From: Phycisphaerae bacterium
Lineage (GTDB): Bacteria; Planctomycetota; Phycisphaerae; Sedimentisphaerales; SM23-30
Length of the DNA stretch: 64,000 nucleotides
Direction of reading: 5' to 3'
Assembly: GCA_016342495.1 (NCBI GenBank)
Contig: JAEIOG010000015.1
Coordinates: 1-64,000 of the forward strand
How positions within the stretch are numbered: position 1 is the stretch's first letter; the number at the start of each line of letters is the position of its first letter. Of this stretch, positions 44,791 to 48,797 are shown one piece after another. Position numbers and translations under genes: made by a program. The notes beneath the pieces were generated by a model that saw nothing but the letters and a program-made list of their open reading frames with translations, was not told the origin of the DNA and ran no database searches.

Positions 44791-46689
44791 TTACTTTTTC
44801 TCTGCTAATAGTCTTTCCTGGGCTGCCTGTAAAATCATTTCCAGCAGTTCTTTATATGATAAACCGGCATATCCAGCCATAAAGTTAAGTTTGCCATCCC
44901 AGCACCAGCCCGGATTAGGATTAACCTCCAATAGCTTGATTTCACCATCGTCATCGGTTCTGAAATCAAAACGGGCATAGTCACGGCAGCCACAACGCTC
45001 GAACAAAATATTGGAATAATCATAGAGTTTAGCTCGATTTTCTTCGCTGAGCCGGGCTTCATGATAAGAAATACTCGTCCAGTAAGGCGAATTTGGGTCC
45101 CATTTGGATTCATAACCCAGAATATGTGGTAAGCCCTTTGGCAGGTTGCTGTAATCTACCTCCAGTGGTGGCAAGACTTTATAGCTCAAACCGGAATTGC
45201 CTATCACCCCGACACTGTATTCTGGCCCGGATAGATATTCTTCCACCAGCACCGGACAGCCCGGCAGCATCTCCCTTAGCTTCGCCAGATATTCGACCAG
45301 TTCCTCGGGATTGTGCACTACCGCGTCTTTGGTTATGCCAATGCTGGAATCACCGAAATTGGGCTTGACTAATGCCGGAAAAATCGAGGGTAAATTAGCC
45401 GAAGTATCACTGGGGTTAAAATAAGTTTCCAATGGCACCGGAATATCTACCGAACGGGCGATGGCATTGATCAGCGATTTATTATAACAGAAACCCAGGC
45501 TCGCCGGCCCGGCTCCGCTATAAGGGATATTAAACATCTCCAGTAATGCCGGCACATGCAATTCCTTAAAGGGATCATTATTATAACCTTCATCGCATAA
45601 ATTAAAGACAAAGCCCGGAGGCGACTTCTTCAGCTCAGCTATCAGTGAATTATGATTATTGATATATTTAAAGTCATAACCTGGCAATTCCGCTAATGCA
45701 CTTTTTAAGCGATTGATGGTCTCAAAATCTTCTGAGTTAAACTGGCCATCGAGTTTGACTGCATCTGGCAGCGATGGGTCGCCCATCAATACCGTTACAT
45801 TGGGGAAAGCCGGTCCTTTGCGGACTACGGTTTTTTTCTTATGCGGGGCAATTGCAGTGATAAATATCCGATGGGCCATCATCCCTAAGTCCTGGTCCCG
45901 GTCGGACATGGCACTTACCCGGCCATGATGACGAATATTTAAGAAACCGGCACTGGTGAGCAACTTTGAGATTCTTTCCCAGTTATAAAGTCTTTCAGCA
46001 TAAAACTGGTCGGCGATGATACCACGTTCGGCATGGGTGATAACTTCGCGGGAGATCAGGCGAAAGCCATCGGCGGCCATCGAACGTTCCCGGCAGACAA
46101 AGTGGTTTTTATCAATCCATTCCCAGCTGCGTTTCTCGAAATTATCCCGCATCCAGTCGCCATCGACCAGATCCATCACCAGAACTCCACCGGAGACCAT
46201 AACCCGCTTGACGGCCTTTAATACTTCCAGATCATCTTCTTCCTGGTCGAAATAGCCAAAGGAATTGCCCATCAGCGTTACGCAGCGGAATTGACTTTCC
46301 GGCAGACGGAATTTACGGGCATCGCCTTCGTGGAAATTAATATTGAACTTATCGCGAGCGGCCCTTTTTCTTGCCAGACGAATCAGATAGCGCGAGCGGT
46401 CTACCCCGGTGACCTTTTCAAAGCCGCGTCGGGCCAGTTCCAGGCAATGCCTGCCCTGGCCACAGCATAAATCCAGCACCGCATCAGCTTTATCCAGCCC
46501 GGCGGCCTGAATGATCATATCAACTTCCGGGATGGTATTGCCATCATTTTCGACCACATCGCCATCGGTTTTCAGATAAAGGGAGTTAAAAAGAGTCTGC
46601 CACCAATCCGAGGGCAAATGCCTTTCCAGATCGGAAATGGGCCCCAGGGTCTTTGCACCATTATTAGAAGCTGTTTTTTTCTTTGCCAT
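44791..46689 (-). CDS. Fusion of SAM methyltransferase and ATP-grasp (D-Ala-D-Ala ligase-like) domains
   Basis: The 632-residue protein has two parts. Residues about 30-290 are a class I methyltransferase with motif I VLDLCCGQGRHCLELARRGF, motif II TGVDRS, INFHEGDARKFRLPE and LMGNSFGYF. Residues about 305-632 are an ATP-grasp ligase related to D-alanine--D-alanine ligase: FVFNLCDEGYNNDPFKELHV, IPYSGAGPASLGFCYNKSL, ALVKPNFGDSSIGITKDAVV, CPVLVEEYLSGPEYSVGVIG and the metal-binding DGEIKLLEVNPNPGW. Such a fusion suggests methylation and amide/peptide ligation on one substrate, for example a peptide-like or siderophore-like metabolite. A ribosome site GAGGAT precedes ATG 46689. It stands alone. 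Confidence 0.88.
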   Translation of the reverse strand: MAKKKTASNNGAKTLGPISDLERHLPSDWWQTLFNSLYLKTDGDVVENDGNTIPEVDMIIQAAGLDKADAVLDLCCGQGRHCLELARRGFEKVTGVDRSRYLIRLARKRAARDKFNINFHEGDARKFRLPESQFRCVTLMGNSFGYFDQEEDDLEVLKAVKRVMVSGGVLVMDLVDGDWMRDNFEKRSWEWIDKNHFVCRERSMAADGFRLISREVITHAERGIIADQFYAERLYNWERISKLLTSAGFLNIRHHGRVSAMSDRDQDLGMMAHRIFITAIAPHKKKTVVRKGPAFPNVTVLMGDPSLPDAVKLDGQFNSEDFETINRLKSALAELPGYDFKYINNHNSLIAELKKSPPGFVFNLCDEGYNNDPFKELHVPALLEMFNIPYSGAGPASLGFCYNKSLINAIARSVDIPVPLETYFNPSDTSANLPSIFPALVKPNFGDSSIGITKDAVVHNPEELVEYLAKLREMLPGCPVLVEEYLSGPEYSVGVIGNSGLSYKVLPPLEVDYSNLPKGLPHILGYESKWDPNSPYWTSISYHEARLSEENRAKLYDYSNILFERCGCRDYARFDFRTDDDGEIKLLEVNPNPGWCWDGKLNFMAGYAGLSYKELLEMILQAAQERLLAEKK

Positions 46690-47066
46690 ATTAAATCCTC
46701 AAAAGTTAATGGCTTGTTCTGGTCAGACAAAACCAATGCCTGATTTGCGTAGTAATAACGTTTTTTAACACAAAATCAAAACAAATTTTCAAAATTATTT
46801 CATTTTAATCTTTTGTATGGATGGAAGCCCGAAAAGTCGGGTTTTGGCAATGATCCTCCCGGCGGGCTGAGGACAGATTTCGCATCGATGGAGACCAAGA
46901 GAGTTGCCAGGTAAGTGGACTTCTGGCAGCTCAGGGCCGTATCTCAGCCCAGCCGGGGCTGACTTTTGCGATTTGCCCCACAGCCGGACGGGATGGTCTG
47001 GTTTTTCGCATAAGTAATGCACCATTTATATCGGACCTGTGCCACATCGGCCAGGCGGGGAGGGAT
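46690..47066. other. GC-rich stretch without supported gene
   Basis: Open frames exist on the minus strand (ending at 46795 and 46944) but have no ribosome site or recognisable domains. The composition (46800-47060) is GC-richer than its surroundings. CTGAGATACGGCCC on the minus strand resembles a short 16S rRNA stretch, but the flanks do not. Confidence 0.35.
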
Positions 47067-47138
47067 TTGCTCTTGATGGGCTTTGTTTGCCCTAAAAAGC
47101 GGGATAAATGGCTTAAAAACCCACTTGCAATCCTGGAA

Positions 47139-47348
47139 TTCAAATTTACATCTCACAAATGTAAACTTACATCTGGCAGATGTAAGTTTGAATTTTATGG
47201 ATGTAAAATTGAATTTAACCCATGCAAGTTTGTTTTTAATGAATGTAAAATTGAATCTGTTAAATGTAAATTCACATCCGATAAATGCAAATTCGCATTT
47301 ATGGATTGCAAAATCACATCGGACCGATGTAAATCCACTTTACTCCAC
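47139..47348. repeat. Ten-unit 21-bp tandem array encoding a degenerate heptapeptide repeat
   Basis: Ten consecutive 21-base units, nine of them starting TGT/TGC-AAA/AAG at 47160, 47181, 47202, 47223, 47244, 47265, 47286, 47307 and 47328 (the first, at 47139, starts TTC-AAA). In the plus frame each unit reads CK[F/I/L]x[S/F]xx: CKLTSGR, CKFEFYG, CKIEFNP, CKFVFNE, CKIESVK, CKFTSDK, CKFAFMD, CKITSDR, CKSTLLH. The ORF spans 47067-47375 (ATG 47076). A second plus frame and one minus-strand frame (47350 to 46944, reading CKFTFVR, CKFEFQD) are also free of stops. Unit length is exact but bases vary, so this is not a recent slippage product. No ribosome site is seen. Confidence 0.85.
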
Positions 47349-47408
47349 ATAAACGGCTCTTGCAACAAAACCTAAAGCATTTAAGCCAGATTTTAACCTC
47401 TTTAGCTC

Positions 47409-47531: not shown

Positions 47532-48797
47532 TTATTCTTTTACTCGTTTGATATTGGCGCCGACGGCATTTAGTTTTTCTTCGATTTTTTCATAGCCACG
47601 GTCGATATGATAGACGCGGAGGATGCGGGTTGTGCCTTTGGCGACCATGCCGGCTAATACTAAGGCGGCTGAGGCACGCAGGTCTGAAGCCATCACCGGG
47701 GCTCCGATGAGTTCTTTGACACCTTCGACGATCACGGTTGCACCTTCTTTGTGAAGTTTTGCTCCCATACGATTCAGTTCAGCGATGTGCATAAAACGGT
47801 CAGGGAAGATTTTTTCGGTGATGATACTGTTGCCATCGGCCAGGCATAACAGAGCCATCAGTTGGGCCTGCAGATCAGTGGGGAAACCGGGGTAGGGCTG
47901 GGTGACGACATGAACCGGGTTAAGCCGGCGAGCGGAACTGACCCGGACCTGGCCGGCGATTTCTTCGACATGGATGCCGATATGTTTCATGCGGTCGGTT
48001 AAAGCCATCAAATGTTCTAATTTGCAATTGTTCAGGGTCAGCTCGCCATTGGTAATAGCTGCGGCTATCATGAAAGTTCCCGCTTCGATGCGGTCGGGGA
48101 TGACCGTGTGTTCGGTGCCATGTAAGGTTTCGACACCTTTGATCGTGATGCGGGGTGAGCCGTGACCAGTGATTTTAGCTCCCATGGAGTTGAGGAAATT
48201 CCCCAGATCGGTAATCTCTGGTTCACATGCGGCAGCTTCGATGACGGTTGTGCCCTTAGCTAAGGTAGCGGCGGACATGATGTTGGCCGTGCCTAAAACG
48301 GTAGAGCCAAAAGCTCCACCCATAAAGATATCATCGCCAATGAGTGAGTCGGTTTTGGCGGTGATATTGCCGCCGTCGAGATGGATTTTAGCGCCGAGTG
48401 CTCCCATCCCGCGGAGGTGGATATCGATAGGCCGATCGCCAATAGCACAGCCACCGGGCATGGAAACTTCGGCTAATCCGCGTTTGGCGAGCATAGGGCC
48501 AAGTACACAGATACTGGCACGCATACGCCGAACACTTTCATAGTCAGCTAAACAATTGGATTCATCTTCGACTTTGACATGTAAAGAGTTCTTGTCATCG
48601 CGCCAGACTTTGGCTCCGAGAGATTCCAGCAGGGTGCAGAGATGGCGGATGTCGGCTAAGTCCGGGACATTATGGATGACAGTTTCTTCATCGGTCAGCA
48701 GGGCCGCTGCGATAATGGGTAGAGCGGCGTTTTTTGAGCCGGAGATATTCATTTCGCCACGCAGGCGGGTGCCACCTTGAATTTCAAATGCATCCAT
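47532..48797 (-). CDS. murA: UDP-N-acetylglucosamine 1-carboxyvinyltransferase
   Basis: MurA transfers enolpyruvate from PEP to UDP-GlcNAc, the first committed peptidoglycan step and the fosfomycin target. The 421-residue protein begins FEIQGGTRLRGEMNISGSKN and AALPIIAAALLT as in the family; the active-site loop is MPGGCAIGDRPIDIHLRGMG with the catalytic Cys retained (so fosfomycin sensitivity is possible), and PGFPTDLQAQLMALLCLADG and DLRASAALVLAGM follow. It is downstream of prmC and the phosphatase-like gene on the same strand; prmC-murA linkage (often with prfA) is common in bacteria. A ribosome site AAGGAATC precedes ATG 48797. Confidence 0.97.
   Translation of the reverse strand: MDAFEIQGGTRLRGEMNISGSKNAALPIIAAALLTDEETVIHNVPDLADIRHLCTLLESLGAKVWRDDKNSLHVKVEDESNCLADYESVRRMRASICVLGPMLAKRGLAEVSMPGGCAIGDRPIDIHLRGMGALGAKIHLDGGNITAKTDSLIGDDIFMGGAFGSTVLGTANIMSAATLAKGTTVIEAAACEPEITDLGNFLNSMGAKITGHGSPRITIKGVETLHGTEHTVIPDRIEAGTFMIAAAITNGELTLNNCKLEHLMALTDRMKHIGIHVEEIAGQVRVSSARRLNPVHVVTQPYPGFPTDLQAQLMALLCLADGNSIITEKIFPDRFMHIAELNRMGAKLHKEGATVIVEGVKELIGAPVMASDLRASAALVLAGMVAKGTTRILRVYHIDRGYEKIEEKLNAVGANIKRVKE

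Follow-up and report, generated by a model that had tools for sequence, protein, structure and literature searches.

The 21-bp repeat array at about positions 47118 to 47357 of the window, i.e., the whole 64,000-nucleotide stretch of DNA that was analyzed, belongs to a class of non-coding arrays whose home position is immediately upstream of FN3-like family genes, often in their leader. We think it fairly probable that such an array and the FN3-like protein make up an undescribed two-part module found in Planctomycetota and Thermodesulfobacteriota. The array would be a series of helically phased, degenerate 21-bp dyads whose spacing is held far more strictly than their sequence, and the array of the window would be an orphan of that system.

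The earlier note had proposed ten exact-length 21-bp units at 47139-47348, and this description was borne out: the core consists of ten gap-free units, TRF also reports a period of 21 at these coordinates, and identity at lag 21 is 0.62 over 189 bp, compared with a window mean of 0.284 (SD 0.043) and 0.41 at the next-best place in the window. Repetition continues beyond the core for about one degenerate unit leftward, to 47118, and for a few bases rightward, and the reverse-complement self-match of the array extends to 47113. The features of the locus are as follows.

44791 to 46689, minus strand: methyltransferase/D-Ala-D-Ala-ligase-like ATP-grasp fusion (Pfam), starting ~430 bp from the array and outside the element
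46690 to 47117, no strand: single-copy intergenic DNA that separates the array from the methyltransferase gene and has no FN3-family remnant
47118 to 47138, no strand: degenerate left-edge unit with half-site TTGCAATCC..., in register with the array by eye
47139 to 47348, no strand: core of the array, ten dyad units of 21 bp that combine the consensus TGYAAATTTRCAT with an 8-bp spacer, variable and semi-palindromic (for example, CTGGCAGA or CGGACCGA)
47349 to 47357, no strand: ragged right edge of the array, from inspection of the sequence
47532 to 48797, minus strand: gene that we read as murA (UDP-GlcNAc enolpyruvyl transferase) from its membership in the EPSP_synthase family (E = 5e-104), ending ~180 bp from the array and outside the element

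The array matches its own reverse complement at 60% identity, compared with 43% (SD 3%) for column-permuted arrays, and its palindromicity was reached by none of 300 permutations. The spacer of the unit is often palindromic itself (CTGGCAG, CGGACCG). Across the class, dyad symmetry was significant (P < 0.05 relative to column-permuted arrays) in 22 of 34 arrays. Each 21-bp unit is a degenerate dyad. Its symmetry centers recur at intervals of 10.5 bp, the length of a single turn of B-DNA, so that successive units present one face of the helix. A helical signal was also found in the composition of the units: at 10.5 bp, spectral power was 1.77 for variability (null, 1.06) and 1.69 for A+T content (null, 1.05). 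Of the two natures suggested earlier for the array, a nucleic acid element with selected symmetry and a coding repeat, the former is upheld by the significant dyad symmetry and the helical pattern of A+T and variability, and the latter is not. We also considered curved DNA and rejected it, as no curvature was common to the arrays (mean z of -0.12, standard error 0.14, relative to composition- and period-matched controls, in a wedge model).

Circular alignment of the unit profiles gave an information content of 6.1 bits, compared with 3.6 (SD 0.2) by permutation. In a common register, the consensus of Desulfobulbales arrays is about GCATTTGAAGCTTCAAATGAG. Arrays of the Planctomycetota core scored z = 2.66 (standard error 0.43) against it and the window array 1.7. 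We therefore rejected the view that different loci have unrelated units, since a degenerate consensus carries across both phyla. Such a pattern fits dyad half-sites arranged along one face of the DNA. Two observations count against phased dyads as the recognized feature: arrays of the distant set, most of them GC-rich, fail to match the Desulfobulbales consensus (z = 0.08), and for a site of specific binding the consensus is very loose. Conservation of spacing rather than of sequence is unusual, and it suggests that what is recognized is a phased dyad lattice on the DNA.

The link to the FN3-like family was established on members gathered from the order (where 79 of 161 genomes have them), from the phylum Planctomycetota and from Desulfobulbales, the last reached via Candidatus Electronema aureum, with members in 9 of 194 genomes at E <= 1e-20. 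When the search was widened to Thermodesulfobacteriota, members turned up only in the genome already known. No part of the family alignment was sufficiently conserved to scan collections with, and a single protein served as the query instead. Arrays were called throughout by a best lag of 21, 42 or 63, z > 4 and a lag-21 identity of at least 0.55. By this definition, an array was present upstream of 54 of 111 family genes (26 of 65 in the Planctomycetota core, 8 of 20 among distant members and 20 of 26 in Desulfobulbales) and downstream of 2 of 112 (1 of 66, 1 of 20 and 0 of 26, respectively), one of the two downstream arrays (L029) being located between two tandem family genes. A background sample contained arrays in 3 of 684 stretches of 1.1 kb (2 of 324 and 1 of 360), and one of the two matches among the 324 is the window array itself. 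The difference between upstream and downstream regions (Fisher test, P = 5e-18) and that from background (P = 1.5e-48) are to be read with the fact that the loci are kin by descent and not independent events. When the best lag was sought between 15 and 28 bp in upstream regions, it was 21 in 60 of them, 20 in four and 22 in none; one array has a 41-bp period. The arrays comprise 7 to 17 units, and some end 24 to 30 bp before the ATG, near an AGGAGG-type ribosome-binding site. Half of the family genes, mostly those of Planctomycetota, have no array by the definition used, which counts against the two elements being one module.

The genome that contains the window (5.4 Mb in 221 contigs) carries related arrays on contigs C13, C80, C82 and C139, and a genome of the same order, G040, has one on another contig. 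Those of C13, C80 and G040 lie roughly 230 to 470 bp upstream of a gene for a ~200-residue protein, MAxFPxTEAxI..., with a sub-threshold FN3 match, and the FN3-linked array of C13 shares 77% identity over 145 bp with that of the window. The FN3-like family has 12 copies in this genome; several are preceded by arrays whose unit sequences are quite different and whose 21-bp period is constant. Arrays without an FN3 gene, namely those of the window, C82 and C139 and two of the background matches, argue against a module of array and gene. By eye, an orphan array on C139 of this genome (L183:150-310 in G000) lies upstream of a probable lipoprotein gene, and another in genome G604 (L198:19552-19640) lies upstream of a putative C5 cytosine methyltransferase gene, both without an FN3-family gene.

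The array of the window is an orphan copy between murA and the methyltransferase/ATP-grasp gene, its partner gene lost or never present. The DNA between 46700 and 47117 is single copy in the genome, and a decayed FN3 gene beside the array was rejected because a search of the window in six frames yielded neither a family gene nor a remnant. In the 1.5 kb upstream of the methyltransferase/ATP-grasp orthologues of six relatives, there is no array and no murA. Taken with the lack of an FN3 gene or remnant, this indicates an orphan array at a site whose gene order varies among relatives. The same comparison led us to reject the array as a regulator of the adjoining methyltransferase gene, as the orthologues lack it. 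The fusion itself was present in 7 of 40 genomes searched, that of the window counted.

The family protein is ~200 residues long and composed of N-terminal helices and one FN3 domain. An AlphaFold model made with 56 family sequences shows helices at residues 8 to 24 and 36 to 88 followed by the FN3 domain (mean pLDDT of 93, pTM of 0.49). The top 50 structural matches of the model in the PDB are FN3 proteins, and most of those in a viral library are FN3 domains. The only Pfam match of the protein is fn3, below its cut-off; no NCBIfam family was assigned above its cut-off, no toxin family matched, and no DNA-binding fold was recognized in the protein. With 12 gene copies and such sparse assignments, the array represents the best handle on the role of the family. 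C-terminal fragments of the gene (about residues 139-202, 152-202 and 166-202), some with stops, are scattered in genomes of the order, e.g., G018, G066, G067 and G107, and look like debris of a multicopy unit.

We favor, at somewhat better than an even chance, the reading that array and FN3-like gene form one module in which the arrays are helically phased dyad sites on DNA. We infer that such an array may offer a platform for cooperative binding by a dimeric or oligomeric DNA-binding protein, and that binding would control or mark the adjoining gene. In pairs of related loci, homology is often confined to a block that begins near the outer edge of the array and reaches as far as the stop codon, the DNA on either side being unrelated; this indicates that array and gene form one unit.

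An unlikely though serious alternative is that the array acts as RNA. Since some arrays end so close to the start codon, beside the ribosome-binding site, they are probably transcribed, and a chain of hairpins made ahead of the FN3-like gene might be a regulatory 5' leader or a repeat RNA that neutralizes the protein, as ToxI does ToxN. Consistent with this, arrays fold strongly relative to column-permuted controls, with mean z of -2.45 and -2.61 on the two strands; better folding on both strands is, however, what dyad symmetry itself requires. The units mostly have one orientation relative to the gene (19 of 20 arrays in Desulfobulbales and 19 of 26 in the Planctomycetota core), which fits an RNA, and so does a strand bias among mismatches in Desulfobulbales, where A-C outnumber G-T (242 and 145, in gene orientation), a bias not expected if the arrays acted purely as double-stranded DNA. 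Yet the bias is inconsistent between groups, favoring the antisense strand in Desulfobulbales, the sense strand in distant families and neither in the core set. In addition, units of 55 arrays showed no base-pair covariation (2745 Watson-Crick pairs observed, 2765 expected; z = 1.1 with G-U pairs included), and no terminator was seen by eye between array and gene in the Desulfobulbales leaders inspected, some of which are 24 to 30 bp long. An Rfam scan gave nothing at the gathering score, its weak matches being mostly microRNA models hit by palindromic, low-complexity sequence. Separately, two c-di-GMP-I-like riboswitch matches below the Rfam gathering score were found at L149:724-802 and L149:1124-1205, on the strand opposite to the FN3-like gene.

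The layout that the RNA explanation calls to mind is that of type III toxin-antitoxin systems (ToxIN, TenpIN, CptIN), in which a tandem repeat array that differs by locus directly precedes a small gene of about 200 codons. The arrays described here also lie directly upstream of a single small gene and seldom downstream, and their repeat sequence likewise varies by locus. However, they are palindromic, helix-phased and built of 7 to 17 copies of 21 bp, and the gene encodes helices and an FN3 domain and not a ToxN-fold RNase, as judged from Pfam, AlphaFold and PDB matches. The window locus departs from this layout further, as it has no FN3 gene.

Rather less probable is that array and FN3-like gene constitute a non-autonomous mobile or gene-converting cassette, with the array as a site of recombination or mobilization, and orphan arrays and gene fragments as its debris. 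The homologous blocks are 88 to 93% identical, are set in unrelated flanks and terminate at, or close to, the edge of the array and the stop codon, and the gene is multicopy (12 per genome), with many truncated C-terminal fragments, some interrupted by stops. An exchange of arrays was also observed between close relatives: L214 (G604:C1:3560000-3577000) and L215 (G600) are about 98 to 99% identical around the locus and share the same gene, with 98% identity over the gene and the DNA downstream of it, yet their upstream arrays are of different types, and a roughly 1.1-kb insertion, possibly an IS element, separates the remnant of the old array from the new one. Set against this, the blocks may simply end where functional constraint does. 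Beside the modules, no family of mobility or regulatory genes recurs, transposases and recombinases included; the main recurrent neighbors are further FN3-family copies. Searches of phage, plasmid and viral collections found none of the modules.

A chance tandem duplication tract without function is a very improbable account of the class. Copy number between relatives does change mostly in 21-bp steps, as it would in a minisatellite, but the period, the dyad symmetry and the degenerate consensus are common to two phyla and the arrays are concentrated upstream of one gene family. For the copy in the window alone, which has no conserved neighbor, neutrality is possible.

The least probable explanation, that the array encodes a protein of Cys-Lys heptapeptide repeats, agrees with a unit length divisible by 3 and with two open plus frames across the ten units of the window but is contradicted by homologous arrays, reading-frame statistics and periods of 20 and 41 bp among related arrays, which do not allow a reading frame. 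The second plus frame noted earlier is indeed open (0, 0 and 14 stops in the three plus frames). In contrast, the array is not stop-free on both strands as had been thought, the minus frames containing 1, 2 and 9 stops over the ten units; the minus-strand heptads that had been quoted come from an ORF at 46944-47156, which covers only the left edge of the array. An open frame across all units was found at a frequency of 0.45 on the forward and 0.42 on the reverse strand of 55 arrays, matching the 0.43 of column-permuted arrays; open frames are uninformative because 43% of permuted arrays have one by chance, and in 30 of the 55 arrays every forward frame is interrupted. At 3 bp, the variability of the units had a spectral power of 0.81 (null, 1.06), i.e., there is no three-base periodicity. 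The Cys-Lys frame, for which a beta-helix or metal-binding repeat had been envisaged, is broken in the closest same-genome relatives of the window array (4 stops in L016, 7 in L017). The other frame (DVKLNLA) is intact in L016 and L017, and the G040 array (L035) has a stop in every forward frame. In Pfam, plus-strand ORFs of the window array had no match, and those on the minus strand had none that exceeded the curated cut-off. Several frames look open, with similar peptides, because each unit is a degenerate dyad. The array class also explains open frames that automated gene prediction may label as heptad-repeat proteins, and what appeared to be a peptide-coding tract is a member of a class tied to one uncharacterized gene family in two phyla.

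Other known repeats resemble the arrays in part. Plasmid iterons are sequence-conserved direct repeats bound by a Rep protein at the origin. Like iterons and phased operator arrays, the arrays consist of direct repeats that each span about two turns of the helix, and they adjoin a gene whose product might be the cognate protein; unlike iterons, they are built of dyads that are strongly degenerate, and rep genes are not among the recurrent neighbors of the modules. The FN3-like family had no match in the plasmid collection. CRISPR arrays differ as well, as the 21-bp units are gap-free, without unique spacers, and no cas gene is among the recurrent neighbors. TAACTGA and other heptanucleotide repeats of Beggiatoaceae and Geobacter are direct, tandem and abundant, and a regulatory role has been suggested for them (PMC4679880, PMC2700814). 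The unit described here is three times 7 bp long, but those repeats are direct 7-mers and not 21-bp dyads with centers 10.5 bp apart that are tied to one gene family. REP elements are intergenic palindromic repeats of 20 to 40 bp, dispersed as single palindromes with a GTAG or CGTC tag (PMC3733652), whereas the present arrays are gap-free tandems of fixed period with no transposase recurring alongside. We found no published description of the array class in the open-access literature, subscription papers lying outside this coverage, and since it matched none of the known kinds we hold it to be new as far as that literature goes.

Further repeats accompany some of these loci. On C82, a 63-bp repeat with an inverted repeat (GGGGACAGTCACCTATT...AATAGGTGACTGTCC) is present on both sides of the gene and array (L011:124-186 and L011:1992-2054). 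Five loci of G000 (L019, L021, L022, L023 and L012) are repeat-rich islands around FN3-like genes that have dispersed repeats of roughly 70 to 110 bp in common, and L023:921-1461 contains 188-bp tandem copies of about 99% identity. Short tandem tracts with a 14-bp, heptamer-like period are common on both sides of FN3-like genes (L046, L050, L057, L063 and others).
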